IMG/VR virus record: IMGVR_UViG_3300044981_000338
Coordinates: 62,001 to 126,000 of that record
From: a virus
Strand: one strand, 5' to 3'
Length of the DNA stretch: 64,000 bases
Position 1 is the stretch's first letter. Every line of letters begins with the position of its first letter. This document shows, piece by piece, positions 27,274-62,018 of this stretch. The notes beneath the pieces were generated by a model. The model did not search any database and had not been told where the DNA came from. It saw only the letters and a list, made by a program, of their open reading frames with translations. A program made the position numbers and the translations under genes.

Positions 27274-27311
27274 AGCCCCCCACCCGTGTGGTGGGGGGCT
27301 TCTTGTTTTCT
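27274..27311 (+). terminator. Rho-independent terminator
   Basis: AGCCCCCCAC (27274-27283) and GTGGGGGGCT (27291-27300) form a perfect 10-bp stem with a 7-nt loop, followed by TTCTTGTTTTC. It sits inside the replication operon, between the probable ssDNA-binding protein and the DNA polymerase, so it probably sets a lower level of downstream expression through partial readthrough. It lies outside the polymerase gene once the ATG at 27328 is used. Confidence 0.85.
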
Positions 27312-27327
27312 TACGGAGGTCACGCCT

Positions 27328-29379
27328 ATGGGATGGAACATCAACCTCCCCGATGCGGGGTGGTACGACCGCGGTACGTACGGCCTTGAGGGCCTCGTCC
27401 GCGAAGTGCTCGATCAAGACGTCGTCGCCATCGACACAGAGACGACGGGGCTGAAAGTCTGGAAGGACACGCCGCTCTTCTGGTCTCTCGCCTGGGGAGA
27501 GCACCGTCGGGTGTGCATGCCCATCACAACGCTCGACTGCTTCAAGCAGTCCTTCGGCGACGAGAGCAAGCGATGGATCTTCGCCAACGCGAAGTTCGAC
27601 ATGCACATGCTGGGAAACGTCGGCATCGAATTCGCCGGCGACTGCATCGACACCCAAGTCATGCACGGGCTTCTGCACGAAGAAGAGAGCCACTCGCTCA
27701 AGGACATGGCCAAGAGTGTCCTTGGATGGCGGTGGACGGACTTCTTCGACACGTTCAACCCGCTCAACGTGCCCGACCCAACCAAGCAACCGAAGAAGCT
27801 GAGAAGCGGGCTGATGTCGCAGCCCACGCGGCGAGAGACCATCCAAGAGATGCTCATGCGCTGCTACCGCGACGACCTGCCCAAGCTCGTCGATTACGCC
27901 TCCAACGACGCGTACGGCACACTGCGCCTCTACGAGAAGCTGAAGGAAGAACTCGAGAGGACGGGCATCTATTCGCTCTACCCCGCGCAGCTGCCAACGA
28001 TGGCACACATCTTCTTTCTGACCGAGGTGCCGTTCACCAAGGTCCTCTACACCTGCGAGCGCAACGGCGTGTATGTCGACAGGCCGTACTTGCAGAACCT
28101 GCGAGGTCCCATGTGGGACGAGCACGAGCAGCTACTGCGTGAGATGGTGCAGCTCTCGGGAGACCCCAACTTCAACCCGAACTCGGTCGAACAGAAGCGC
28201 GACTACTTCATCAACCACGAGGGGCTGAAGCCGCTCATGCTGACCAAGGGGGGAAAGAGCGGCATCAAGCAACCCTCCATCGACAAGGGGTTCCTTGAGC
28301 ACTACGAGCACGAGAGCCGCATGGCCGCGCTGGTCCTGCGCGACTCCAAGCTCACGAAACTCATCGGCACGTACATCGACGGCGCCGACGAGCACTTCGA
28401 CCCCCACAGCCGCATCCACACACGGTTCAACCAGGACGTCGCGCGCACGGGGCGACTCTCCTCGAGCGACCCGAACCTGCAGAACATCCCTACCCCAGAG
28501 AAGGACAAGTTCCAGCTGCGCGGGGCTTTCCAGGCGCAGCCCGGCGCAGGCACGGACCTCATCGTCGGCGACTACGCGCAGCTCGAGATGCGCCTTCTCG
28601 CCTGCGCCACGGTGACAGACAAGAACCCCGAGGGCGCCCGGGAGATGATCCAGATCTTCCTCGACGGCAAGGACATCCACATGGGCAACGCCGCCATGGT
28701 GTACGGGCCCATCTACGAGAAGCAGCACGGGTGGAAGCTCACCTACGACTTCCTCAAGGAGGCGAAGAAGATCGACGGCAAGGTGAAGAGCGGAGAACTT
28801 CCCGCCACCGCACGTACCCACCAGGTCGAGTTGGCCCTCTTCGCCAGAAATGCCATAAAATCCGTTGGCTTTGGACTCAATTATGGAATGAAAGAGAACA
28901 AGCTTGCCAGGCAACTAGGCATAACCAAAGAGGAAGCGAAAGCCATCATCGACGCGTACCTAGGCACCTACCCCGCCGTCCAGGGCTTCTACGACGCCGC
29001 CATCGAGGAGACGCGCGCGACGGGCTTCTCCTTCACGCTCCTCGGCCGCCGCCGCTACCACCCCTCCATCAACAGCCCGAACGCGGGGGACCGGTGGAGC
29101 GAGGAGCGCAAGGCGGTGAACATGCAGATCCAGGGGACGGCCGCGGATGCGGTGCGGCTCTCGATGATCCGCATCTGGCGGGCGGGGCTCGACAAGAAGT
29201 ACGGGTGCCGGATGCTTCTTCAGATCCACGACGAGCTCATGTTCGAGTGCCCCAAGGAGACGGTGGCCGAGGCGAGAGCCGAGATCACCGCCATCATGGA
29301 GCACCCGTTCCCCAACGACCTCGCGGTACCCCTCGAGGTCTCTATCGGCTCATGGCCGAGCTGGAACAAGGCGAAGTGA
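27328..29379 (+). CDS. polA: Family A DNA polymerase with 3'-5' exonuclease
   Basis: A 683-residue enzyme from ATG 27328 (ribosome binding site ACGGAGGT). The proofreading exonuclease is complete: Exo I DTETTGL (36-42), Exo II around NAKFD (87-91) and Exo III YASNDAYGT (189-197). The polymerase core has motif A GDYAQLEMR (about 414-422), motif B RNAIKSVGFGLNYG (507-520) and motif C QIHDELMFE (632-640). No 5'-3' exonuclease domain is present, as in T7-type enzymes. Codon usage changes sharply over motif B: bases about 28845-28945 use AGA, ATA, AAA, AAT and CTA, while flanking codons almost always end in G or C. This hints at recent recombination or a healed insertion. It is the main replicase of the phage. 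Confidence 0.95.
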   Translation: MGWNINLPDAGWYDRGTYGLEGLVREVLDQDVVAIDTETTGLKVWKDTPLFWSLAWGEHRRVCMPITTLDCFKQSFGDESKRWIFANAKFDMHMLGNVGIEFAGDCIDTQVMHGLLHEEESHSLKDMAKSVLGWRWTDFFDTFNPLNVPDPTKQPKKLRSGLMSQPTRRETIQEMLMRCYRDDLPKLVDYASNDAYGTLRLYEKLKEELERTGIYSLYPAQLPTMAHIFFLTEVPFTKVLYTCERNGVYVDRPYLQNLRGPMWDEHEQLLREMVQLSGDPNFNPNSVEQKRDYFINHEGLKPLMLTKGGKSGIKQPSIDKGFLEHYEHESRMAALVLRDSKLTKLIGTYIDGADEHFDPHSRIHTRFNQDVARTGRLSSSDPNLQNIPTPEKDKFQLRGAFQAQPGAGTDLIVGDYAQLEMRLLACATVTDKNPEGAREMIQIFLDGKDIHMGNAAMVYGPIYEKQHGWKLTYDFLKEAKKIDGKVKSGELPATARTHQVELALFARNAIKSVGFGLNYGMKENKLARQLGITKEEAKAIIDAYLGTYPAVQGFYDAAIEETRATGFSFTLLGRRRYHPSINSPNAGDRWSEERKAVNMQIQGTAADAVRLSMIRIWRAGLDKKYGCRMLLQIHDELMFECPKETVAEARAEITAIMEHPFPNDLAVPLEVSIGSWPSWNKAK

Positions 29380-29381
29380 CC

Positions 29382-29726
29382 ATGGAGAGAGTGAAGAAGA
29401 GTCAGATCGACGCGCAAGTCGCTGTACTGCTCGGGAAGAAGAGGAGCGAGGTCTCCGGCATCACCGCCACGTTCTTGCGGGAGGTGGTCCGGGGACTCTC
29501 AGAGAAGGGGGAGGTCAACATGGATGGGCTGGGGAGGCTGAAGGTGATCTGCCGCCGCGGTACCCGTCAGACGACCTACACCCGCATCGGCCACAAGAAG
29601 TCGAAGCCTGCTCGTGTACACGTCCCCGAGAAGTACTATGTGTCCTTCAAGAAGGCGGAACCACTTACGGTCGCCATCAAGGAAGCAAGAACCGGAGGTC
29701 ACCATGGACAAGTTCGGAGTGGATGA
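29382..29726 (+). CDS. HU/IHF-like DNA-bending protein
   Basis: A 114-residue protein starting MERVKKSQIDAQVAVLLGKK, 2 bp after the polymerase stop. The N-terminal helices and the segment GEVNMDGLGRLKVICRRGTRQ (about 43-63) match the HU family core (valine/glycine-rich turn, then the arm strands with basic residues). The arm and tail are Lys/Arg/His rich. HU proteins bend and compact DNA. Phage versions help replication-origin opening or recombination. The C-terminus extends about 20 residues beyond a normal HU (90 residues). It overlaps the next small gene. Confidence 0.8.
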   Translation: MERVKKSQIDAQVAVLLGKKRSEVSGITATFLREVVRGLSEKGEVNMDGLGRLKVICRRGTRQTTYTRIGHKKSKPARVHVPEKYYVSFKKAEPLTVAIKEARTGGHHGQVRSG

Positions 29727-29868
29727 AGGCGTGAACCAGGAAGAACTGGAGAAGGCAGCTACAGATGGCTGCCCCGTATGCGGCAAGAAGCCCACGAGGC
29801 ACGGCAACGTTCTGCTGTGCCCCGTGCACGGCTCGGAGCCCTTCGAGCAGAACAAGAAGAAGACCTAG
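29704..29868 (+). CDS. Small zinc-ribbon protein, 54 aa
   Basis: ATG 29704 has a strong ribosome binding site GGAGG inside the HU gene. The product has CPVC (residues 23-26) and a second CPVH (39-42), giving a C2-CH type zinc knuckle, with acidic N-terminal and lysine-rich C-terminal ends. It overlaps HU by 23 bp and ends 8 bp before the recombinase gene. Function unknown. A DNA- or protein-binding accessory is plausible. Confidence 0.6.
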   Translation: MDKFGVDEGVNQEELEKAATDGCPVCGKKPTRHGNVLLCPVHGSEPFEQNKKKT

Positions 29869-29876
29869 GAGAGACC

Positions 29877-31166
29877 ATGCCGCGAATGCCCGTCACAGAT
29901 CTGAACAAGGGAATCGCGCAGCTCGAAGCTGCGCTCAACAAGAAGCCGGCTGTGAAGGGCGCCCAGGTGATGACGGACATCGATCTGGCGCCCAACACCT
30001 ACTTCCTCCGGCGACCGTCAGGCATCATGTCACTCGACATCCACACAGGCGGGGGGCTCCCGGCGGGCGGGCTCACCTACCTGAGTGGTCCGGACGGCGC
30101 AGGGAAGACGTTCCTTCTCTACAAGTACCTCGCAATGAACCAGAGGCTCTACGGCCTCCGCTCAAGCCTCGCTATCGGCGTGAGCGAAGCAGCGCCGGAC
30201 CACTTCTTCATGAGGAAGTGCGGCGTGCAGATCTGCATCCCGGAGCAGATGATCGCCGAGCGCGTCGCCGAACGAAAGGACCGCGGAATGCCTTCCTTCA
30301 CCAAGGATCAACTGAAGGAGTTTAGGACACCAACCGTCGGTCAGCTGAAGATCCTGCGTGGCGCGAATGGTGAGGAGCTCCTCATGGCCATCTTGGCCTG
30401 CTTCGAGTCGGGTCTCTTCGACATCGTAGGCCTGGACTCTGTCTCTGCAGTACTTCCTGAAGCCGACGCCGGCAAGGACCTCGACGAGGCAGCCAAGCGC
30501 GCCGCGGCGGCGAGTATGCTCACGAGGTTCTTCCAGCACTACCTCAACGGCACAACCGGCTACTACGGCCAGAACCCGACCACGGTCATCTTCACCTCCC
30601 AGGTGCGCTCGAACTCGAAGAAAGCCGAGGCGCCGGCGAACATCGCCAAGTACTTGCCGGACTACGCTCCCCAAGGCGCGTGGGCGGCCAAGCACGGCAA
30701 GCTCATCGACATCCTTGTGAAGGGTGGTGCCAAGGACAAGGAAGAAGTCGAGACCAACTCACAGCCTTCTTCCCTCGGCCAGGCCGTGGCGCAGAAAAAG
30801 AAGCGTGTGCAGGTCGGCAAGGTCATCAACTACGAGGTGCTCAAAGGCAAGGCTGGCGTGCACGAGGGCATCACCGGGGAGTTCGACTTCCACTTCCCCG
30901 GCAACGCTGCCGAGATGTACGACCCAACCAAGCTGCTCACCGAGGACCAGCGCATGCTTGTCATTGCTGCCATCCAAAGTGGGCTAGCAGAAGAGAAGAA
31001 CGGGTTCGTGACCTTCTACGACATGATGGGTGCTCCTAGACCCGGACTTACGAAGGTCGCTGGTATCGAACGCGTCGTCGACATCATGAAGCAGAACTTC
31101 GACGTCGAGCTGACAGTACGCCGTGACCTACTCTCCGATGCAGGCATCGAATGCGCGTATCGCTGA
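29877..31166 (+). CDS. RecA/UvsX-type strand-exchange recombinase
   Basis: A 429-residue RecA-fold ATPase. Walker A GPDGAGKT (71-78), Walker B region FDIVGLDSVSA (about 180-190) and a C-terminal-to-core strand VIFTSQVR (about 236-243) with a Gln like the ATP-sensing residue of RecA. A helical segment LDEAAKRAAAASMLTRFFQHYLNG follows the L1 region, as in phage UvsX proteins. It would coat ssDNA and drive homologous pairing for recombination-dependent replication. Ribosome binding site GGAGAG. Its 3' end overlaps the nuclease gene by 16 bp. Confidence 0.88.
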   Translation: MPRMPVTDLNKGIAQLEAALNKKPAVKGAQVMTDIDLAPNTYFLRRPSGIMSLDIHTGGGLPAGGLTYLSGPDGAGKTFLLYKYLAMNQRLYGLRSSLAIGVSEAAPDHFFMRKCGVQICIPEQMIAERVAERKDRGMPSFTKDQLKEFRTPTVGQLKILRGANGEELLMAILACFESGLFDIVGLDSVSAVLPEADAGKDLDEAAKRAAAASMLTRFFQHYLNGTTGYYGQNPTTVIFTSQVRSNSKKAEAPANIAKYLPDYAPQGAWAAKHGKLIDILVKGGAKDKEEVETNSQPSSLGQAVAQKKKRVQVGKVINYEVLKGKAGVHEGITGEFDFHFPGNAAEMYDPTKLLTEDQRMLVIAAIQSGLAEEKNGFVTFYDMMGAPRPGLTKVAGIERVVDIMKQNFDVELTVRRDLLSDAGIECAYR

Positions 31167-31735
31167 GCGCCGAAGCACGCAACGGCATTTGCTCCAAGTG
31201 CGCCGCGGGTAGTCACGGCATCCCCATCCTCGTCATCCCTTTCATGCTCACTGTCGAAGGGCACGCCGGCGAAGCAGGGGCTCTCTGCCAGGGTTGTCTC
31301 TTCGAACCTGGGGGTCTGTCCGTTCAAGTACCCATGGAGAACTTGGCGCCCGGTCCAGCGCCTCGCAGGAAGTCGCTGAAGAAGGCAAAGAAGGCTTCCC
31401 AGCGCCTCGAACTTGACGTGGCTATCGAGCTGAGCGAGGTCTACGGCGAGGGCTCTGTCCGCACCCAGCCAGGCTCCGGCAACCAGAGGGGAGCCAAGGG
31501 CGACTTGCGCATGAAGGGTGGCCTGCGCGTGGAAGAGAAACACACGCAGGCCGAATCGTTCTCCCTCAAGCTCGACGAGCTCTACAAGATCGCCGGCGAG
31601 GCAGGAGCAGGAGAGATGCCTCTCTTCGTCATTGACTTCGTCGAACAAGGAACAAGGAAGCTGAAAGACCGCTTCGCCGTCTTGCACTTCCACGACCTGA
31701 AGGGACTCCTGCATGTCGCTCGCGAGCATCGCTGA
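31151..31735 (+). CDS. PD-(D/E)xK nuclease, probable Holliday-junction resolvase
   Basis: A 194-residue protein. The N-terminal part has two cysteine pairs (C14/C17 and C46/C49), a likely zinc ribbon. The C-terminal part has a nuclease core: GSGNQRGAKGDLR (108-120, Asp118) followed by LRVEEKHT (125-132, Glu129 and Lys130), the D...ExK pattern of archaeal-type and phage resolvases. Its place directly after UvsX and before a RecB-like nuclease supports a role in resolving recombination intermediates. A second, RusA-like resolvase is encoded 1.5 kb downstream. The fold is inferred from the motif. Confidence 0.72.
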   Translation: MRVSLSAEARNGICSKCAAGSHGIPILVIPFMLTVEGHAGEAGALCQGCLFEPGGLSVQVPMENLAPGPAPRRKSLKKAKKASQRLELDVAIELSEVYGEGSVRTQPGSGNQRGAKGDLRMKGGLRVEEKHTQAESFSLKLDELYKIAGEAGAGEMPLFVIDFVEQGTRKLKDRFAVLHFHDLKGLLHVAREHR

Positions 31736-32585
31736 CCTGAACAAGCCCATCGAGGTCCTCACCCCCTACATCGAGATGGCGAAGAAGCTCTCCGCCGTCT
31801 ACGACGACTTCGTCCTGCTCGAGCAGGATGGCCACGACCGCGAGCCCGGCATCCACGCCTCCGAGCTCTATCCGTGCCTGCGAAAGCCCGTCTACTCGCT
31901 GATGGGCGTACCGCGAAAACCGATGGTGTCGAAGTTCTGGAAGCAGCGCTTCAAAATCGGCAAGGCCACACACAAGATGCTGCAGGATGACTTCCACGCC
32001 ATCGCAACGCGCTCCCAGAAGGGACACGCCATGCGCGTGGCGGCGTCGATGGCCCAGGAGATGGACTGCACTGTCGAGTTCGAGGACGAGGTGCCAGTCA
32101 ACCCCAAGCACCAGCCGCTCGCCGCGCACTACCAGATCTTCTCCTCAGCGGACGGCGTCTTCGTCTTTCGCAGCAAGGCCACCAGCGAGGTCGTTTTGCG
32201 CGTGGGACTCGAGATCAAGACCGAGTCACCGGACGAGTACGCAAAGCTCAAGGAGCCGAAGAAGGAGCACGTTCGCCAGGCCCACCTGTACATGGCGAAC
32301 CTAGACCTGCCCTTGATGTGGTTCTTCTACATCAACAAAGGCAACCAGAACAACACGCCGTCGACCTCCCCGTGGCTCATCACATGGCAGCCGCAAGTCT
32401 GGGAAGAGATCGAAGCGCGCATCCAGACCGTGCACGCCTTCGCCGCTCGCGGTGAGCAACCTGAACGAAATGAGGGCATCTACTGCGAGTTCTGCCCGTG
32501 GAAGTACACATGCCAGCCGTCGAACATGACGCAGTCTCAGCGACCCCCCAGCCGAAAAGAAGACGTCCGCAGACCAGGAGCCTGA
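31713..32585 (+). CDS. RecB/Cas4-like exonuclease with Fe-S cluster
   Basis: A 290-residue PD-(D/E)xK nuclease. It begins with a conserved GIHASELYPCLRK segment (47-58, Cys55), then SADGVF (145-150, Asp147), GLEIKTES (165-172, Glu167 and Lys169), and the QxxxY motif QAHLY (189-193). It ends with CEFCPWKYTC (258-267, Cys258, 261, 267). The four cysteines match the 4Fe-4S cluster of Cas4 and AddB-type nucleases. It likely processes DNA ends for recombination or degrades host DNA. It is unlinked to any CRISPR system here. It overlaps the upstream resolvase gene by 23 bp. Confidence 0.85.
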   Translation: MSLASIADLNKPIEVLTPYIEMAKKLSAVYDDFVLLEQDGHDREPGIHASELYPCLRKPVYSLMGVPRKPMVSKFWKQRFKIGKATHKMLQDDFHAIATRSQKGHAMRVAASMAQEMDCTVEFEDEVPVNPKHQPLAAHYQIFSSADGVFVFRSKATSEVVLRVGLEIKTESPDEYAKLKEPKKEHVRQAHLYMANLDLPLMWFFYINKGNQNNTPSTSPWLITWQPQVWEEIEARIQTVHAFAARGEQPERNEGIYCEFCPWKYTCQPSNMTQSQRPPSRKEDVRRPGA

Positions 32586-32586
32586 C

Positions 32587-33219
32587 ATGAGAGAGCCCCA
32601 GACTGGCGGCCTCCAGCTACCGAAGGACATCGGCATCTCGGACACCGAAGTCCAAGTCATCGCCGGCCGATGGAACACCGTCGGCGACGTCGACGCCCGA
32701 CTCAAAAGGTTCGGCATCCACGAAAACCAGGAGCCCGACGTCGTCTGTCCCATTGTTACCGCGGAGGAGCTCGTCAACCCAGATCTCCAGCGGTACACCA
32801 TCGTCTACGCAGCGCAGCTGCGCTGGTACAACTACGCCGTCCGTCTGCACGCGGACATCAAGGCCGCCCTCCTGGGCGTGCAAAACGAGATGTCCGACAT
32901 CGAGTCCGCCAAGCGCATCCACTTCCGGCAGCGCGACGAGGGCAAGAAGGACAAGGACAAGATGTCGGCGACCGAGATGAAGGACCTCATCAACATGGAC
33001 CCGGTCTACCGCGAGCTGCGTGTACAGGAGCAGCACTTCTCGCAGCAGAACCTCAAGATGAGCGCCTGGGTCGAGTCGCTCGACCGAAACCTCAAGGTCG
33101 TCTCGAGGCAGATCGAGAACCGCAAGGCGGAAGCCGCCGGCGGCATGCGTGAAGGCAACATGCCTGGCGCCACCATCGGCACTTGGGAGCAGCGGCAGGC
33201 AGCTCGTGGCGTTAGATGA
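32587..33219 (+). CDS. Hypothetical helical protein, 210 aa
   Basis: Starts one base after the RecB-like stop. After a short N-terminal domain (residues 1-65) the rest is predominantly helical and strongly charged (QNEMSDIESAKRIHFRQRDEGKKDKDKM, then ELRVQEQHFSQQNLKMSAWVESLDRNLKVVSRQIENRKAEAAGG), consistent with a coiled coil. Position between two nucleases suggests a recombination accessory or a loader. No domain recognised. The stop overlaps the RusA-like gene by 4 bp (ATGA). Confidence 0.62.
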   Translation: MREPQTGGLQLPKDIGISDTEVQVIAGRWNTVGDVDARLKRFGIHENQEPDVVCPIVTAEELVNPDLQRYTIVYAAQLRWYNYAVRLHADIKAALLGVQNEMSDIESAKRIHFRQRDEGKKDKDKMSATEMKDLINMDPVYRELRVQEQHFSQQNLKMSAWVESLDRNLKVVSRQIENRKAEAAGGMREGNMPGATIGTWEQRQAARGVR

Positions 33220-33662
33220 TCCGCCTTGAGCTGCCCTGGGTCCCGCCCACCTCGAACCTGGCCTACTTCAATCTCCCAAGAGGAGGTAGGGCGCTCACAA
33301 AGAAGGGTCGAGCCTTCCTCACGGAGACCAAGGCGCACATCGCTCAGCACTACCCGACCGCTCTACGCTTCTTTCGCCCGAACAAACCCTACGCGATGCT
33401 CCTACGCTTCTTCTTCAAGGACATCGAGAACAAGGGCTACGCGAAAGGAAAGGCCGATGCGAGGTATAAGGTCTTCGACGGCGGCAACCGCACCAAGCTC
33501 CTCGAGGACGCTCTCAAGGACGCAGGAGGCATCGACGACTCGCAGACCATGATCTCCATGTGGCAGAAAGTCTACGGGACACCCGAACGAACCGTCGTCT
33601 TCGCATGGAGCATGGAAGAAGAAAGCACCCCATTCGATGAACTCCTACGACAGCTCACCTGA
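33216..33662 (+). CDS. rusA: RusA-like Holliday-junction resolvase
   Basis: A 148-residue protein with the RusA family layout: an N-terminal PPTSNLAYFNL stretch (10-20), GGRALTKKGRAF (23-34) and the active-site region FDGGNRTKLLEDALKDAGGIDDSQ (87-110). RusA uses Asp pairs in a DxDN...D...DD pattern. Here the first is Asp88 and the later ones are Asp98, Asp107 and Asp108, but the second Asp of DxDN is Gly90. Other ligands (Asn91, Lys94) are kept. The enzyme may therefore be weakened or use another residue. The start is coupled to the upstream gene. Confidence 0.8.
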   Translation: MIRLELPWVPPTSNLAYFNLPRGGRALTKKGRAFLTETKAHIAQHYPTALRFFRPNKPYAMLLRFFFKDIENKGYAKGKADARYKVFDGGNRTKLLEDALKDAGGIDDSQTMISMWQKVYGTPERTVVFAWSMEEESTPFDELLRQLT

Positions 33663-34014
33663 CGAGTTCTACGAGCTCTTCAACCGCTGCAATCACAGTG
33701 AGCTCTATCAGATTGCGCGGCGCAACGGGCATGTAGTATTCCCCAACGCCTCGCGCGAGACACTCATCCGACTCATCATCGGCCAAGAGATCTCTACAGC
33801 CATCGACCATGACATCGACGAGTGGCGCCTCGCCATCATGCGGTTTCTCATCGACCACCGGCGGATGCTCGAGACCCAGATCACCTGCCCCGCCAAGTCC
33901 TTCGACCCGCATGCCTGCTTCGGGTGCGTAGACGTCCAAGTCATCAGCTGCATCACCAGCAACGGCCACGAAAACCAACGACTCATCCAGCTTCGCAAGA
34001 AGAAGACCTTGTAA
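33637..34014 (+). CDS. Hypothetical protein with SAP-like segment, 125 aa
   Basis: Overlaps the RusA-like gene by 26 bp. The segment FYELFNRCNHSELYQIARRNGHVVFPNASRETLIRLIIGQE (11-51) has a helix-loop-helix spacing reminiscent of SAP-type DNA-binding motifs often found in small phage proteins. The second half has cysteines C84, C94, C97 and C105, perhaps a metal site. Function unknown. DNA binding is plausible from the motif and context. Confidence 0.6.
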   Translation: MNSYDSSPDEFYELFNRCNHSELYQIARRNGHVVFPNASRETLIRLIIGQEISTAIDHDIDEWRLAIMRFLIDHRRMLETQITCPAKSFDPHACFGCVDVQVISCITSNGHENQRLIQLRKKKTL

Positions 34015-34023
34015 GGAGAGACC

Positions 34024-34917
34024 ATGTCCGAATCGACGATGACCCCGCAGACCGCTCCCCGCGACCGCAACCGCCTCTTGACGGAGTCGCCCTTCCAGCT
34101 GCGCATCCTCGTCCAGAAACTCGGCGGTCTGTCGACCGACGAGCAGAAGATGAGCTGGCACGACATGAAGTCGAAGGAAGCGCAGATCGACTACGTGCTG
34201 AAGCTGCTGCTGCAGTGGGACCAAGCCAATCCCGGCGCCGCGCAAGCGCCCCCTCCTGCCGGTCCGGTTCCCACCTCGAACGGAGCGATGCCTTACCAGC
34301 CGCCTCCCATGATGCAGGCACCTCCGCAGCAGATGGTGCCACAACAGCCGCAGCAATCGATGCAGCCCGCACCACACTACGCTCCCCCTGGCGTGATGCC
34401 GCACGCTCCCATCCCTGGAGCGATGATGCAGGCACCTCCGCAAGTTCCGCAGGTCAACCCCGCCGCCGCGCAGCAGGTCCAGCAGGCCACAACCGAGACG
34501 ACCAAAGCGCGCCGACAGCCGAGGACGCCCTCTGACGCACAGGCACCGCAACCCACCGCAGACATCGGCGTCGAGATCGTCGGACTGCTAACCACGCTCA
34601 AGGCCAGCGCCGATGCACAGGTCGCTCGCTACGATCAGTTCCAATCGTACCTCACCTCGTTGCTGCAAGAAGCGTCCGACTCCAAGAACAGTCGCGTCAC
34701 CGCCCTCGAAGCCAAGTACGCCGATGTCCATGCGACGCTGCAGCAGACCAACCAGTACCTGCAGTCCATCTCGCAGGTGCAGACCTGGACGCTCCTGGCT
34801 TTCCTCACCTTCATGCAGGAGAACATGGGCGCGTCGATGACTGACCTCCTCGGAGCTGCCATCAGTGACAGCGCCACCTTCCAGCAGCTGGTGAACAAGG
34901 CCACGGGAAAAGTCTAG
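34024..34917 (+). CDS. Proline/glutamine-rich protein with a likely -1 frameshift extension
   Basis: A 297-residue protein with a good ribosome binding site (GGAGAG). A short N-terminal helical domain (LTESPFQLRILVQKLGGLSTDEQ, 19-41) is followed by a Pro/Met/Gln-rich linker (about 72-155) and a helical C-terminal domain (QVARYDQFQSYLTSLLQEASDSK onward, about 200-290). It closes the replication operon. The last codons before the stop read G GGA AAA GTC TAG: the heptamer GGGAAAA (34905-34911) is a classic -1 slippery site, and the -1 frame stays open for 68 more codons up to the terminator. Function unknown. Confidence 0.7.
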   Translation: MSESTMTPQTAPRDRNRLLTESPFQLRILVQKLGGLSTDEQKMSWHDMKSKEAQIDYVLKLLLQWDQANPGAAQAPPPAGPVPTSNGAMPYQPPPMMQAPPQQMVPQQPQQSMQPAPHYAPPGVMPHAPIPGAMMQAPPQVPQVNPAAAQQVQQATTETTKARRQPRTPSDAQAPQPTADIGVEIVGLLTTLKASADAQVARYDQFQSYLTSLLQEASDSKNSRVTALEAKYADVHATLQQTNQYLQSISQVQTWTLLAFLTFMQENMGASMTDLLGAAISDSATFQQLVNKATGKV

Positions 34918-35116
34918 TCGCCGTACTCGAAGACACGTGGCCTGGGTGCGTACGCCCCTCGACCGTAGACATTCTGCGCTACGACGAGGCTGCCATCGAT
35001 GCTCTGAGCGACGCGTCGGTCCTACTACTCGCCCGCCAGGTCGGGGTTCTGGTTGATGAAGAGATCCAGTTCCCTGCCCTGGTGCGAGTGCGGCTAAAGC
35101 GCAACACTTACCAATA
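34905..35116 (+). CDS. C-terminal extension made by putative -1 programmed frameshift
   Basis: Slipping back one base at GGGAAAA gives ...GGG AAA AGT CTA GTC and a 68-residue tail (SLVAVLEDTWPGCVRPSTVD... ending VRVRLKRNTYQ) that stops at TAG 35114-35116, 1 bp before the terminator stem begins. This frame has no ATG, GTG or TTG before its last few codons and is closed by a TGA at about 34865 upstream, so it cannot be an ordinary separate gene. Its composition (acidic, Leu/Val/Asp-rich, few Arg until the end) resembles real proteins of the window, unlike the other two frames. The fusion would be about 363 residues. A small hairpin (GGGTG...CGCCC, 34943-34956) lies 31 bp downstream, farther than usual for a stimulator. 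Confidence 0.6.
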
Positions 35117-35117
35117 G

Positions 35118-35153
35118 AAAGGGTCGCTCTCCTTCGGGAGGGCGGCCTTTTTT
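35118..35153. terminator. Strong bidirectional terminator with TTCG tetraloop
   Basis: A 15-bp stem (35118-35132 with 35137-35151, three G-U pairs) closed by TTCG. A-run on the left and T-run on the right let it work in both directions. It separates the plus-strand replication operon from the converging minus-strand repeat-protein gene, whose stop is at 35159-35161. Confidence 0.9.
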
Positions 35154-35158
35154 CTTAG

Positions 35159-38100
35159 CTATTCGTCGCTAGGCTTGCCTCGACGGATGTAGATGGGTGC
35201 GTTGTCGCTGCTGTCCGACGAGGGCTGCGGGGCTACTTGGAGTGCTGGTGTAGTCGTTATTGGGGCGGGCTTGCCAACGACGCGCGCCGAGACAGGCAAC
35301 GTACTCGGAACGGCCGGAAGTACCAGAGGCCCAAGCTGTCCTGGAAGGAGTATGACAGGCGGTGGTGGTGGCGGCCCTGGGGGCGCCGGCGTGATCACGA
35401 GGAAGTAACTACCTACCCCCCAATCGTCGAAGATGCCCGCACCGAGCTCATAGTGCGGCGCCACAAAGGGCTGCGTACTGCCTTCGCCTGAAGCTACACC
35501 CGCAGGCGTCAAAAGCAGGGAGAGAGAAGATGTCGGCAGCGCTTCACCAGAGGAAACTCCCGCAGGCGTCAAGCTCAATGTGAGAACCGGGCGCGTCTGA
35601 CCTTCTGCTCCTTCAATGCCTGCAACGAAGAACACGTGTGAGACTTCAGCAGGAGACAACACCTCCGCACTCGAGAGACCTGTGAGCGTAAAGGTGCTGC
35701 TCAACGTCTCGGCTCCGACGGCGCCTTCTCCTGTACCTGCAGGAGTAAGAACAAGGGCCACATCGCCAGCACCCACGTGTTCCTCCGACGCAACGCCGGG
35801 CAGCGTCGTAGTGAGCGTAGAAGTCTCGGGGGATAGGACTTCACCTGAAACAACACCGGTCAGCTTCCCTGTGGACGATGCAGTCGTACTTCCCACATCT
35901 CCACCGACGACTCCTGCAGCCGAAACAACAGGGCCGACCACAGGCCTGCCGACAGCTTCACCTGATGCAAGTCCTGGCAAGGTCGTCGTCTGTGTAGAAG
36001 TTGTGGGAGAAGTAGCCTCCGACGATTCAATGCCAGCCGGCGTTGCTGCAAACGAGATACGAGGAGAACCCAGGGCCTCGCTCGAGGCAACGCCTGACAT
36101 TGTCACGATGATGCCAGTCTCCATGGCACCCTTGCCCACCTGCTCGTCGGACGGGACACCGGGAACGGTCGCAGTGAAGGAACTCGTTGGGGGAGACACG
36201 GCTTCGTCGCTCACGATGCCAGCAAGCTGAGAGACAACTGCGTGGACGACCCCGTGTCCCACCTGGTCGTCGCCGAGCGCACCCGGAGCCGTCGCGCCGA
36301 GGGTCGTCGAGGCGGGGCCCTCCTGCTCGTCGCTGGCGGCCCCCGAGAGGGTCCACGAGAGGTTCGTCGTCTCCCTCCCGAGCGCCTCGCCGGAGGCCAC
36401 TCCGGAGGGGGCCAGGACCGCCGTAGCGGTCTCGGTGCCGACCGACCCCCCGTCGATGCCCGCCGCCGTCGTCCCGGACGTCGTGGAGGCCCCCGGGAGC
36501 CCCTCCGCACCCTCCACGCCGGTCAGGGTCGAGGTGGCGCTCATCGTCTCGGGCGATAGCGTCTCGCCGCTCGGAACGCCGGCGGGGCCCACGGTGGGGC
36601 CGACCGCCGCGTGGCCCGCCTGCTCGTCGGAGGGCAGTCCCGCCAGGGTGCTCGTCTGCGAAGACGTCTCGGGCCCCACGTCGCCGCCGTCGATCCCGGA
36701 TCCCGACAGGACCGCCGCCGTAGTCTCCGCACCCACACCCTCGCCCGACGGGACGCCCGCGATCGAGAGGTCCATCATCGTCGACGCCGGAGGAGACGCC
36801 TCGCCGCTGTCGACCCCCGCGAGGGTGGACGTGGTCGAGGACGTCTCGCTCCCGACACCGTCGTCGTAGACCCCGACCATGGTCCCCGCGACGACCTCGA
36901 TGACCTCGGATCCGAGCGCCTCGCCGGAGCCGATGCCTGGGACCGCTAGCGTCGAGGTGATCGTCTCCTCGCCGACCACTTCTTCAGGTGGGACTCCCGC
37001 CGGCGCGACCACCGAGCTCACGTTCGGAGGACTCATCACCTCATCCGAGGCAGCACCTGGTTGCGAGAGGTCTAGGATGACGAGCGCACCCGCCGCCTGT
37101 CCTTCCTCTCCCTGAACGCCCGCGAGAGTGCTCGCGATAGAGAGAGTCTCCGGACTCAGCGCCTCCGCAGACGTGGCTCCGGCAGCAGATACGCTCGGAC
37201 CAACCGAGGCCGGCGGCAGAGCCTCGCCGCTCGTCAGACCCGGAACGGTGAAGGTCGACGTCTCGGTGACGGACCCCGCCTGCTCCGCCGAAGGCACTCC
37301 CGCGGGGGACGGAGACGGACCCACGTTCTCCGCGCCGACCGACTCGGCCGAGTGGACCCCAGAGACAGAGATGCTCGGTCCGACGTTTCCAGGTCCCACT
37401 TCCCCACCCGCGACCCCGGCAGGTCCGAGGCCCATCGTCGTCGACGCGGGTCCCAGAACCTCCGCGGGGTCAACCCCCGACGGAGACATCGCGGGACCGA
37501 CGTTCGCCGCACCGACGGCCTCCGCCGAGGGCACGCCCACCACGGAGACGTTCGGCCCGACGTTGCACGAACCGTCCCCCTCGCCGCTCGCGACACCCGA
37601 GGGACCAAGTCCGAGCGTCGTCGAGGCAGGTCCGAGAACCTCCGCCGAGTCGATGCCCGTCAGGATGTTCGCCGCCGCCGCGGCCGTCACCGTGGGCTGC
37701 GTCGACCCTTCCTGGCTGTGGATACCAGCGCTCGTCGTCGCGACGGTCGTCGTGGGCGCGCCGACGGTCTCGGCGCTGTGCACCCCGGAAGGCGCCAGCC
37801 CCAGCGTGATCAGCGGGACCACGTCCGGCGTCGCAGACAGGACGCCCATGATCACCTGGATCCAGGTGGCTGATGCACCGATCGGGGTCGTCGCCGTCGC
37901 GGACGTCCCCGTCGCCGCCGCCGTCTTCGACTCCAGCACCGACCCGTACCCGGTCACGCTGTTCGAATCGATCGACCACCCCGTCCCGGGACCCGTCGCG
38001 GCGTCGTAGTTGAAGTTGTAGCCGAGCAGCAGCTCTCGGTCGGACCCGGTGGTGACGGGCCCCGACGAGCCGAGGTTGCTCGTTCCCGAAGAGAAGAGCA

Positions 38101-38896
38101 GCGTCGCCGCATCGATCAGCGACGACGCGTTCTGCCCCGCGAGCTCGACGATGTAGACCTCGGGGAAGGCCGGCGTTGCGTGCCAGTTGACCGTCACCGT
38201 GTTCGCACCCGCGGCGGCGGCCCGGATCGAGGCGCACTTGTAGACGTAGACCGAGATGTTATCGGAGCCGGGCGAGTAGAGCAGGGACCCGACGAGGGTG
38301 TACGTGTTGCCGGAGTTGTCCGTCGGGACGCCGTTGAGCGTGTTCGTCGTGTCGCCCCACGCGATGAAGATCAGGTTGGCGTTTCCAGCGGTCTGGGCCT
38401 TCGCGTACGTCACGAGGCCCGTGCTCGAGCTGAAGTCGTTGACCGCCGTCTGCACGATGGAGGGAACCACGGCCGGCACGGGGGCGGTGCCCCCCTCGTA
38501 GGAGTGCAGACCCGCAGGCGACGGTGCCGGGCCCACGTTCGACGGCCCCACCTGCTCGCTCGAGTGGAGACCGGGCAGCGTCGTCGTGAGTGTGGAGGTG
38601 ACGGGGCTCTCGGCCCCGCCCGAAGTGAGTCCGGGGAGCGTGCCGATGTGGTCCGCAATCGTGTCCGCTCCGACCTGCTCGGCAGAGGGGACGCCGGGGA
38701 CCGAGAGGGCGACCGTCGTCGTCTGCGCCCCAAGGACCTCGTCCGAGGCGCTCCCCGGTATGGTCGCGTTCCCGACGGCCATCACGGTCGGCTCGGTCGC
38801 TCCCTCGGCCGACGGGATTCCCGCCGGGGCTACGAAGACGGTCGGACCGATCTCCGCGACCGAGAAGCTCGCGATGGAGTTGTCCGCGATGGGCAC
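35159..38896 (-). CDS. Giant tandem-repeat virion protein (about 46 repeats) with beta-sandwich insert
   Basis: A 1245-residue protein from GTG 38896 (MPIADNSIASFSVAEIG). Almost the whole chain is built of about 46 degenerate 19-21-residue repeats with the core AGVPSxExxGxxT (for example SGVHSAETVG, AGVPSAEQAG, PGLASGEAVG). One non-repeat domain (about residues 146-356), beta-rich with aromatic and Gly/Ser/Thr residues (GNTYTLVGSLLYSPGSDNISVYVYKCA), interrupts the array. The C-terminus is Pro-rich, then ends YIRRGKPSDE. Repeats of this kind are known in phage and bacterial surface proteins. Here it probably forms a long tail-fibre or whisker shaft. It follows the polyglycine adhesin gene. GC content is clearly higher over about 36.2-38.9 kb than over 35.2-36.2 kb. 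Confidence 0.75.
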   Translation of the reverse strand: MPIADNSIASFSVAEIGPTVFVAPAGIPSAEGATEPTVMAVGNATIPGSASDEVLGAQTTTVALSVPGVPSAEQVGADTIADHIGTLPGLTSGGAESPVTSTLTTTLPGLHSSEQVGPSNVGPAPSPAGLHSYEGGTAPVPAVVPSIVQTAVNDFSSSTGLVTYAKAQTAGNANLIFIAWGDTTNTLNGVPTDNSGNTYTLVGSLLYSPGSDNISVYVYKCASIRAAAAGANTVTVNWHATPAFPEVYIVELAGQNASSLIDAATLLFSSGTSNLGSSGPVTTGSDRELLLGYNFNYDAATGPGTGWSIDSNSVTGYGSVLESKTAAATGTSATATTPIGASATWIQVIMGVLSATPDVVPLITLGLAPSGVHSAETVGAPTTTVATTSAGIHSQEGSTQPTVTAAAAANILTGIDSAEVLGPASTTLGLGPSGVASGEGDGSCNVGPNVSVVGVPSAEAVGAANVGPAMSPSGVDPAEVLGPASTTMGLGPAGVAGGEVGPGNVGPSISVSGVHSAESVGAENVGPSPSPAGVPSAEQAGSVTETSTFTVPGLTSGEALPPASVGPSVSAAGATSAEALSPETLSIASTLAGVQGEEGQAAGALVILDLSQPGAASDEVMSPPNVSSVVAPAGVPPEEVVGEETITSTLAVPGIGSGEALGSEVIEVVAGTMVGVYDDGVGSETSSTTSTLAGVDSGEASPPASTMMDLSIAGVPSGEGVGAETTAAVLSGSGIDGGDVGPETSSQTSTLAGLPSDEQAGHAAVGPTVGPAGVPSGETLSPETMSATSTLTGVEGAEGLPGASTTSGTTAAGIDGGSVGTETATAVLAPSGVASGEALGRETTNLSWTLSGAASDEQEGPASTTLGATAPGALGDDQVGHGVVHAVVSQLAGIVSDEAVSPPTSSFTATVPGVPSDEQVGKGAMETGIIVTMSGVASSEALGSPRISFAATPAGIESSEATSPTTSTQTTTLPGLASGEAVGRPVVGPVVSAAGVVGGDVGSTTASSTGKLTGVVSGEVLSPETSTLTTTLPGVASEEHVGAGDVALVLTPAGTGEGAVGAETLSSTFTLTGLSSAEVLSPAEVSHVFFVAGIEGAEGQTRPVLTLSLTPAGVSSGEALPTSSLSLLLTPAGVASGEGSTQPFVAPHYELGAGIFDDWGVGSYFLVITPAPPGPPPPPPVILLPGQLGPLVLPAVPSTLPVSARVVGKPAPITTTPALQVAPQPSSDSSDNAPIYIRRGKPSDE
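35400..38830 (-). repeat. Array of about 46 degenerate 57-63 bp coding repeats
   Basis: Each unit encodes a Gly, hydrophobic, x, Ser/Gly, x, Glu/Asp core followed by two or three beta-type hydrophobic residues. By eye I counted six units before the interrupting domain and about forty after it. Units keep the protein pattern but diverge in DNA, so this is an old array rather than a recent slippage product. Confidence 0.7.
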
Positions 38897-38900
38897 GCGG

Positions 38901-40046
38901 TCACCACCACGCGATGTAGAGGAACCCGTTCCCTCCGGCGCCACCGGGACCGAACGTCACTCCCGCACCACCACCACCACCGCCGCAACCCCAACCGCCC
39001 ATTCCTCCCGTGCCACCCGTACCCGCCGACGCGCATGCGCCACCGCCCGTGCCTCCCCAGACGAAGAACGGATGCGCTCGATCCCCGTAGAGGTAGCCAC
39101 CGTTTCGGCCCGCCCCACCAGGTCCACCCGCCACCGCCGTACCTCCCGGTACCGTCGCCGGATAGTTGCTCCCCACGCCCGTCAGCGCACCGCCAGCACT
39201 CACGCTGTTGCCTGACGATGCGGCGCCGCCACCCGTACCCGCGTTGGTGAAAACACCCGAGGCACCCAGAGTGAGTCCGCCGCCCGCGGTTGGCGTACCC
39301 GGGTTTCCGCCGCTTGATCCCTGCACACCCGCGGACCCAGACCAGACTCCGCGAGGTGAGAAGCTAGCCGCTGTAGCGACTGTTCCTCCGCCACCTCCCG
39401 AAGCCGCTCCAGAAGCGCCACCACCAGTACCACCCGAGGCATTGCTGTTGGCACTGATCAGAAGGAGGCCGCCCACCGACTGCGCCGGAGAGTCTGCCAC
39501 GTACGTCGTCGCGGGCGACGATCCGGTGGCGCCGCTCGTTGAGCCGCCCGCGCCACCCAAACCGATCGAATAGCAAAGAACCGACGGCAACAGCGTCGCC
39601 ATGAAGGTGATCGAGGTGACGCCGCTCGATCCTCCTCCACCACCACCACCCTTGGCCGTGAGCGTCGCCGCCGTCAGACCAGCGCCTCCGCCTCCGCCTC
39701 CCCCGCACGCGACCATGTAGACGCTGGATGCCGACTTCGGCTTGACCCACGAGTTGTACCAGTTGCTCCCGTTCGGGACCCAGCCCGGGATGAGGACCTC
39801 GCGCGCCTTCGGGTTCGGCTTGCCGTCGCCGAGCGCCGCCATGATGAACGGCATGAGGATCGGCGCCTGGCCGATCTCGGGGTCCATCGGCGGCATTTCG
39901 CCGCGCCCCCAGTGCCACCAGAACTCCTCGTGCTGCCGCGGGATGGGGGCTCGCGCCAGCGCGACGAGCCGGTCGCGATCCGGCGTCCACAGGCGTCCTC
40001 CACCATCGTAGCGGTACGCCCTCGCCAGGCTCTCGCGGAGGCGCAT
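38901..40046 (-). CDS. Polyglycine-domain tail-fibre tip adhesin
   Basis: A 381-residue protein. The first about 105 residues are a structured attachment domain (WWHWGRGEMPPMDPEIGQ, VLIPGWVPNGSNWYNSWV). From about 112 on it is extremely rich in Gly with short motifs such as GGGGGGGAG, GGTGGGASG and GGTGGMGGWGCGGGGG, ending in FLYIAWW. Glycine-rich blocks of this kind build the polyglycine sandwich that forms the receptor-binding tip of some T4-like phages (gp38-type adhesins). A similar role in host recognition is inferred. It lies 4 bp upstream of the giant repeat protein. Confidence 0.7.
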   Translation of the reverse strand: MRLRESLARAYRYDGGGRLWTPDRDRLVALARAPIPRQHEEFWWHWGRGEMPPMDPEIGQAPILMPFIMAALGDGKPNPKAREVLIPGWVPNGSNWYNSWVKPKSASSVYMVACGGGGGGGAGLTAATLTAKGGGGGGGSSGVTSITFMATLLPSVLCYSIGLGGAGGSTSGATGSSPATTYVADSPAQSVGGLLLISANSNASGGTGGGASGAASGGGGGTVATAASFSPRGVWSGSAGVQGSSGGNPGTPTAGGGLTLGASGVFTNAGTGGGAASSGNSVSAGGALTGVGSNYPATVPGGTAVAGGPGGAGRNGGYLYGDRAHPFFVWGGTGGGACASAGTGGTGGMGGWGCGGGGGGAGVTFGPGGAGGNGFLYIAWW

Positions 40047-41321: not shown

Positions 41322-42464
41322 CTACAGCTTGTAGATGCCGGTCGGCGTCGTCGGGGCGTAGATCGAGCCGACATTGAAACTGATATTTCCGCCGGACGGA
41401 GTCACGGGCAGACCGCCACCGAAGTCGCTCATGTCGGCCGTCGACCCGACGGCGACGCCGCCCGCGGCCTGCGAGGTGATGGTGATCGAGCGGTCACCCT
41501 GGTTCGCCGCCGCGTTGAGCGTGCTCGCGTGACCGTCGCTCCAGTGGAACACAGGGGCGCCGCCCGTCGATCCGTCCCAGAGCTGGGCCTTGAGCGGCTC
41601 GACGTAGATGACGGTGTCGGTCGCGACGACCGCCTTGTCGACGACGACGCGCACCTTGCCGTCCTGGAACGCGATGAGCTTGTTCGTCGAGTCCGAGCCG
41701 CCCGCCGCGTCGTAGAAGCAGATGAACTGCCCAGGGTTACCCGCAGGCACCGTCGTCCAGGTCACGGGGCTCGTCGCGTTCGCAACGCCGCGGCTCGAGG
41801 TCGTTCCGGACACGGTCGGGTCGGTCCCGATGCGCGTGCCGAGGATGTCGACGACGAACTGCGCGAGCGTCAGGTCTACCGCGTAGCCTCCGCTCGCGTA
41901 CGCGCCGGAGGTCTGGACCGCGAGACCCTCGAGTGTGTTGAGGTCGAAGGTGTTCGTGGCGACCGATGCGGCGAGGCCCGTCTGGTTCGCGGACTGGATA
42001 CCAGCCGACGAGGTGATGCCGCCGCACACAAGCACATCGTTGTTCGAGAAGCCGTGGGTCGCCGACGTGTACACAGCCGGGTTCGCGTTCGTGACGTTCG
42101 TAATGAGCTTGAGCGAGTTTCCGGTGCTCGCAGTCGCGTCGATCAGGATCGCCTTCTGCGTGTCGCCGGTCCACGACAGGGCCTTCGTGTTGAAGCCGTC
42201 GCGTCCCTTGTCGAAGAGGTACGCGGCCCCAACGGCCCCGAGCGGCAGGTGGTGCCCGAACTCGACGTGGCGCATGCGCGCGCTTCGCAGGATGCGGTCG
42301 CGCGTCGTGCTGCTCTTGCGCTTCGCCTCGTGGTGCCGCCGCGCAACGCCCTCGTTGATGTGCCCGCGCATCAGGGCGTCGATCTCGACGCCGATGAGGC
42401 TCACGTCGGCGCGAGCGACGTAGGGACGCCCAACCCTGCGAATCCCGAACGGCAGTGCACTCAT
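41322..42464 (-). CDS. Virion structural (tail-fibre base) protein, 380 aa
   Basis: Begins with a roughly 65-residue basic region (MSALPFGIRRVGRPYVARADVS... EAKRKSSTTRDRILRSARMRHVEFGHH), then a long beta-rich region of Thr, Ser, Gly and Val with aspartates (LKLITNVTNANPAVYTSATHGFSNNDVLVCGG and similar). The pattern is that of a fibre or shaft protein with an attachment N-terminus. It overlaps the next upstream gene by 4 bp and belongs to the GC-rich fibre module. No specific family was identified. Confidence 0.62.
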   Translation of the reverse strand: MSALPFGIRRVGRPYVARADVSLIGVEIDALMRGHINEGVARRHHEAKRKSSTTRDRILRSARMRHVEFGHHLPLGAVGAAYLFDKGRDGFNTKALSWTGDTQKAILIDATASTGNSLKLITNVTNANPAVYTSATHGFSNNDVLVCGGITSSAGIQSANQTGLAASVATNTFDLNTLEGLAVQTSGAYASGGYAVDLTLAQFVVDILGTRIGTDPTVSGTTSSRGVANATSPVTWTTVPAGNPGQFICFYDAAGGSDSTNKLIAFQDGKVRVVVDKAVVATDTVIYVEPLKAQLWDGSTGGAPVFHWSDGHASTLNAAANQGDRSITITSQAAGGVAVGSTADMSDFGGGLPVTPSGGNISFNVGSIYAPTTPTGIYKL

Positions 42465-61990: not shown

Positions 61991-62018
61991 GGCCACTCCG
62001 GTGACGCGCGCAGATGGT

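Follow-up and report, generated by a model that had tools for sequence, protein, structure and literature searches.

A probable programmed −1 frameshift in the last gene of a replication and recombination operon of uncultured phages

This analysis concerns the 3' end of a phage gene in the IMG/VR virus record IMGVR_UViG_3300044981_000338, of which positions 62,001–126,000 were analysed as one stretch of 64,000 nucleotides (the window). Comparison with relatives indicates that a programmed −1 ribosomal frameshift very probably takes place at positions 34905–34911 of the window, where a slippery heptamer lies just ahead of the stop codon of a 297-residue gene, referred to here as the carrier gene. 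A first-pass annotation of the window had proposed the −1 frameshift and named conservation in related phages as a check; every relative retains both of them, heptamer as well as −1 frame (12 of 12 distinct phages including the window), and the interpretation is thus supported. The elements concerned are the following.

34024–34917, plus strand: carrier gene in the 0 frame, 297 residues; an open reading frame (ORF) with 11 aligned homologues and an AlphaFold2 model.
34905–34911, plus strand: slippery heptamer G_GGA_AAA; direct reading places it in the X_XXY_YYZ phase, and GGGAAA is invariant in the 12 distinct phages.
34915–34917, plus strand: 0-frame stop codon TAG, with a single sense codon (GTC) between it and the heptamer.
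34911–35117, plus strand: extension in the −1 frame, 68 codons and a TAG stop (35115–35117), conserved in relatives.
35116–35153, plus strand: terminator-like hairpin with a U-tract (RNA fold −27.2 kcal/mol, z score −5.2).

Read directly, the 3' end of the carrier gene is ..GCC ACG GGA AAA GTC TAG and the protein terminates in ..ATGKV, which confirms the phase and the position near the stop that had been assigned to GGGAAAA. The sense part of the −1 frame covers 34911–35114 and its earliest ATG, GTG or TTG is a GTG at 35082; the first-pass annotation was also right that these 68 codons lack a usable start of the three kinds. Translation of the −1 frame gives SLVAVLEDTWPGC directly after Gly-Lys, and the predicted junction peptide of a frameshift fusion would be ..ATGKSLVAV.. 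(..KATGKSLVAVLEDTWPG). A terminator stem had been placed at the end of the −1 frame, and the hairpin was indeed found there, although it is absent from the output of a simple terminator scan; it starts within the stop codon of the extension (from 35116) and sits 3' of the extension, not 3' of the 0-frame stop. Given this position, the extension is probably inside the operon transcript.

In the window by itself, the slip site and the open −1 frame are within chance. GGGAAAA occurs twice (3.7 expected), and 37% of starts at a random position and frame remain open for at least 70 codons. The significance comes from conservation in the 11 further distinct phages. Searches with the carrier protein or its DNA gave no match in viral contigs or cultured phages, and the relatives were found via its neighbours: the UvsX-like gene of the same operon led to eight records, an alignment of this gene to three more and g125, the gene directly upstream of the carrier gene, to one more. 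L006 and L010 are 99.99% identical and were counted once, which gives the 12 distinct phages. Every known member is an IMG/VR record; two scans of genome contigs found no relative, host or prophage, and scans with slip-site patterns (a main pattern and a clade-B pattern) returned known members only and no extra phage. The UvsX tree separates the phages into two deep clades on long, fully supported branches, and the slip site is present in both.

The heptamer is GGGAAAA in nine of the phages and GGGAAAC in three, in phase in each case. The codon preceding GGA varies (ACG, GCG, GGG, CCG, GAG, CAG and AAG) but its final G, which the heptamer needs, is constant; with the codon usage of the operon itself, the chance of a G followed by GGA AAA is p ∼0.008 per independent lineage. 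In the UvsX tree L035, a clade B phage whose heptamer is GGGAAAA, groups as sister of the three phages that have GGGAAAC. The seventh base of the heptamer therefore differs between L035 and its sisters in a way that changes the 0-frame residue (Lys/Asn) and leaves the −1 frame GGG AAA intact. Ten phages have one sense codon between the heptamer and the 0-frame stop, and two (L008 and L035) have none.

This stop codon shows a bias: each of the 12 phages uses TAG or TAA and none uses TGA, whereas TGA accounts for 61 of the 93 stops counted in the other genes of the operon. The bias may be linked to the choice of release factor and to the efficiency of frameshifting.

The extension is under purifying selection. 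Its pairwise nonsynonymous divergence (dN) is 0.07–0.41 against a synonymous divergence (dS) of 0.23–2.0, most changes fall on third codon positions of the −1 frame, and alignment scores were higher for the −1 frame than for both other frames in all eight pairs tested. The extension is conserved at 29–66% identity in ten aligned homologues, and the L035 extension is matched as well (E = 2.7e-23). The extension is also more conserved than the protein that it extends, with 40–66% identity to the window in the seven closer relatives as opposed to 30–49% for the carrier. The domain is encoded at this locus only in 13 of 13 records, one of which has in addition a marginal partial match (E = 0.008). 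The first-pass annotation had listed a one-base sequencing error joining the two frames as a possible refutation, and since the window comes from a metagenome assembly a single indel, or a decayed gene that has lost one base from a formerly fused ORF, is conceivable in principle. The frame relation, the heptamer and the nearby stop nevertheless recur in 12 distinct, separately assembled phages with intact extensions under selection; the relatives have already refuted this explanation, which has practically no chance of being correct.

The extension could instead be a separate small gene whose translation, coupled or re-initiated, starts from a non-standard codon close to the stop of the 0 frame. 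The upstream stop lies just within the downstream frame, an arrangement that is common for coupled genes, and L004 and L008 carry an early ATA in frame. The conserved residues, however, begin at the heptamer itself (Gly1, Lys2, Val7, Trp12 and Pro13). In the window and the seven closer relatives there is no ATG, GTG, TTG or CTG ahead of the conserved V..(D/E)..WP block, so that Val7, Trp12 and Pro13 all precede any such codon in the −1 frame; in the window, ATT at 34971 and CTG at 34974 lie at least 20 codons into the extension. Coupling would also leave the in-phase invariance of GGGAAA unexplained, and we regard a separate gene as very unlikely. Slippage of the polymerase on the A run, yielding messenger RNAs minus one base or plus two, could produce the same kind of fusion protein as ribosomal frameshifting. 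Productive polymerase slippage usually occurs on long runs of A or T, and the run here is just four A (three in the GGGAAAC members), which is below the usual productive lengths. Transcriptional slippage does not predict a conserved GGG ahead of the A residues, but tandem transfer RNA (tRNA) slippage does, and a transcriptional origin is exceedingly unlikely.

Several results weigh against a programmed frameshift. RNA structure downstream of the slip site is not conserved across the relatives when pseudoknot-free folds are compared with shuffled sequences. A single relative folds clearly better than its shuffles (z = −2.5), and for the window the fold is poorer than the average (z = +1.4); an alignment fold of the downstream region contains four pairs and no covariation. 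A Shine–Dalgarno-like sequence is present upstream of the slip site in some members only, and no solved structure or profile family backs the function proposed below for the two forms. A stimulatory element is not present in every accepted programmed −1 frameshift. Because downstream structure is not conserved and the Shine–Dalgarno-like sequence is confined to some members, the conserved signal is the heptamer together with the nearby stop. For Escherichia coli, PMC4066793 places G_GGA_AAG among the most shift-prone heptamers, with 39 of 64 heptamers shifting measurably without stimulators, and PMC5009743 lists G_GGA_AAC as the shift site in the g-t gene of the haloarchaeal virus HCTV-1; the texts consulted yielded no measured value for G_GGA_AAA or G_GGA_AAC. 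Taken together, sequence comparison supports the putative −1 frameshift about as strongly as such evidence can, and we infer that ribosomes do slip here and produce both forms.

The setting of the gene is equally constant. The first-pass annotation had placed it at the end of the replication operon, and it is the final gene of a helicase–primase–PolA–UvsX–UvsY–RusA operon for replication and recombination, whose products include helicases, primase, PolA, a UvsX-like recombinase, resolvases, a Cas4-like nuclease and a UvsY-like protein. In all 12 phages the carrier gene directly follows g125 at the same position of the operon. The upstream features are the following.

27286–33662, plus strand: recombination part of the operon (PolA, a small HU-like ORF, UvsX-like protein, Holliday junction resolvase, Cas4-like nuclease, UvsY-like protein and RusA), from PHROGs and Pfam and from synteny in relatives.
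33637–34014, plus strand: g125, the upstream neighbour, 125 residues with a conserved Cys motif; it adjoins the frameshift gene in all relatives.

This setting bears on a further possibility, namely that the frameshift is real but that the carrier is a tail assembly chaperone of the lambda G/GT type and serves tail assembly. Such chaperones are the best-known setting for −1 frameshifts of this heptamer class in phages, and the carrier resembles them in its heptamer class and in having a short form and a −1 extended form. Tail-like genes lie on the minus strand beyond the terminator, including a major tail protein-like match (41325–42464). A separate tail chaperone was looked for in the window and none was located. 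The carrier gene, on the other hand, is on the plus strand, last in an operon whose genes are constant neighbours in the relatives, and is not flanked by the genes for major tail and tape measure proteins; neither carrier nor extension matches a tail chaperone profile in PHROGs or Pfam. A role as tail chaperone is thus most unlikely.

Some further observations were made on the neighbouring genes. The name HU for the small operon ORF is a reading of its sequence by eye and has no profile match. The UvsX-like ORF (29778–31166), as delimited by the earliest start available to it, is probably overlong; homology sets in near 29874 (MPRMPV..). The g125 product is a conserved protein that belongs to no family, with a conserved CPA(K/R)..CFxCxDxQVxxC motif and an N-terminus that to the eye resembles SAP; a sequence search of the PDB gave SIZ1 (PDB entry 2rnn) as its sole match, with an E value of 0.74. 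On the minus strand, convergent with the operon, an ORF of 1261 residues (35159–38944) is made up of numerous degenerate repeats that follow the pattern AGVxSxExxGxxxVGP.

Neither the carrier nor the extension has a convincing match in Pfam, PHROGs or solved folds, in agreement with the first-pass annotation, which had recognised no family for the gene. The AlphaFold2 model of the carrier has a confident helical N-terminal domain (residues ∼15–68), a disordered linker rich in Pro, Gln and Ala (∼70–180) and long C-terminal helices (181–294) of lower confidence. The part of the gene that encodes the linker contains an exact direct repeat of 20 bases, ATGATGCAGGCACCTCCGCA, at 34309–34328 and 34423–34442. 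In L009 (12166–13278) and L011 (12160–13326) the Pro/Gln-rich linker is greatly expanded and the C-terminal helices are largely replaced; both phages retain the slip site and the extension despite the much altered C-terminus of the carrier. The extension is modelled as a small helical fold, best from residue 31 onwards (block means of the predicted local distance difference test of 78–91 for residues 31–70), with helices at 36–46 and 57–68. The wording of an extra C-terminal 'domain' in the first-pass annotation therefore seems reasonable for the helical C-terminal part of the model. A SAP/Rho_N-like motif in the extension, suggested by eye, gained no support from profiles: no PF02037 or PF07498 match was found at the extension in 12 records or in hmmscan, and a profile comparison with g125 gave a probability of only 10.6%. 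Foldseek and VIA-align gave no match for a helix-extended turn-helix fold of the extension.

The mechanism that we propose is as follows. Ribosomes would reach G_GGA_AAA near the stop of the 297-residue gene, and in some passages both tRNAs would re-pair one base back, on GGG AAA. The 0-frame stop would then be bypassed and 68 more codons read, giving a fusion of ∼364 residues alongside the short form of 297 residues. The carrier may multimerise through its C-terminal helices, in which case a minority of subunits would bear the extra small helical domain, and this domain might tether the complex to DNA or to a protein partner in the replication and recombination machinery of the phage. That the purpose of the extended form is to act as a minority adaptor subunit within an oligomer is a guess, and rather a doubtful one.

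The frameshift mechanism itself is of a known kind, although, to judge from the libraries and literature searched, neither the gene family nor its setting seems to have been described. Most of the known, well-characterised programmed frameshifts of tailed phages occur in tail and capsid genes. The major capsid gene of T7 and T3, gene 10 (10A/10B), resembles the present case in that a −1 frameshift near the end of the gene adds a C-terminal piece to a fraction of a multimeric protein; it differs in being a structural gene with another slip sequence, and no relation between the proteins was detected. Lambda gpG/gpGT and related tail chaperones (G_GGA_AAG, and G_GGA_AAC in HCTV-1; PMC5009743) likewise extend the C-terminus by reading on in the −1 frame and have an N-terminal part common to both forms, conserved across diverged phages. 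In contrast to them, the carrier lies in a replication and recombination operon, its extension is a single piece of 68 residues and profiles show no sequence relation to the tail chaperones. Another replication-linked gene with such a frameshift is bacterial dnaX, in the variant in which tau is the frameshift product and the stop of gamma comes right after the site (PMC5009743); there too the 0-frame stop is directly past the slip site and the longer form has an extra C-terminal part. No DnaX homology was detected here, however, and the site is GGGAAAN instead of A_AAA_AAG and has no conserved hairpin. If our guess of a two-form oligomer holds, it would be analogous in logic to gpG/gpGT of lambda tails or to gamma/tau of dnaX.

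For annotation, the pattern to look for in such operons is GGGAAAA or GGGAAAC followed by zero or one codon and then TAG or TAA; gene callers would truncate the carrier gene at this stop and drop its most conserved part. The invariance of the putative frameshift across both deep clades of these uncultured phages, in the last gene of a replication and recombination operon, suggests that this machinery includes a two-form protein that has so far gone unrecognised. Tentatively, this may be an undescribed replication or recombination factor with a fixed ratio of short to extended subunits in one oligomer, in which frameshifting would set the stoichiometry of a replication complex as it does in tails and in the bacterial clamp loader.
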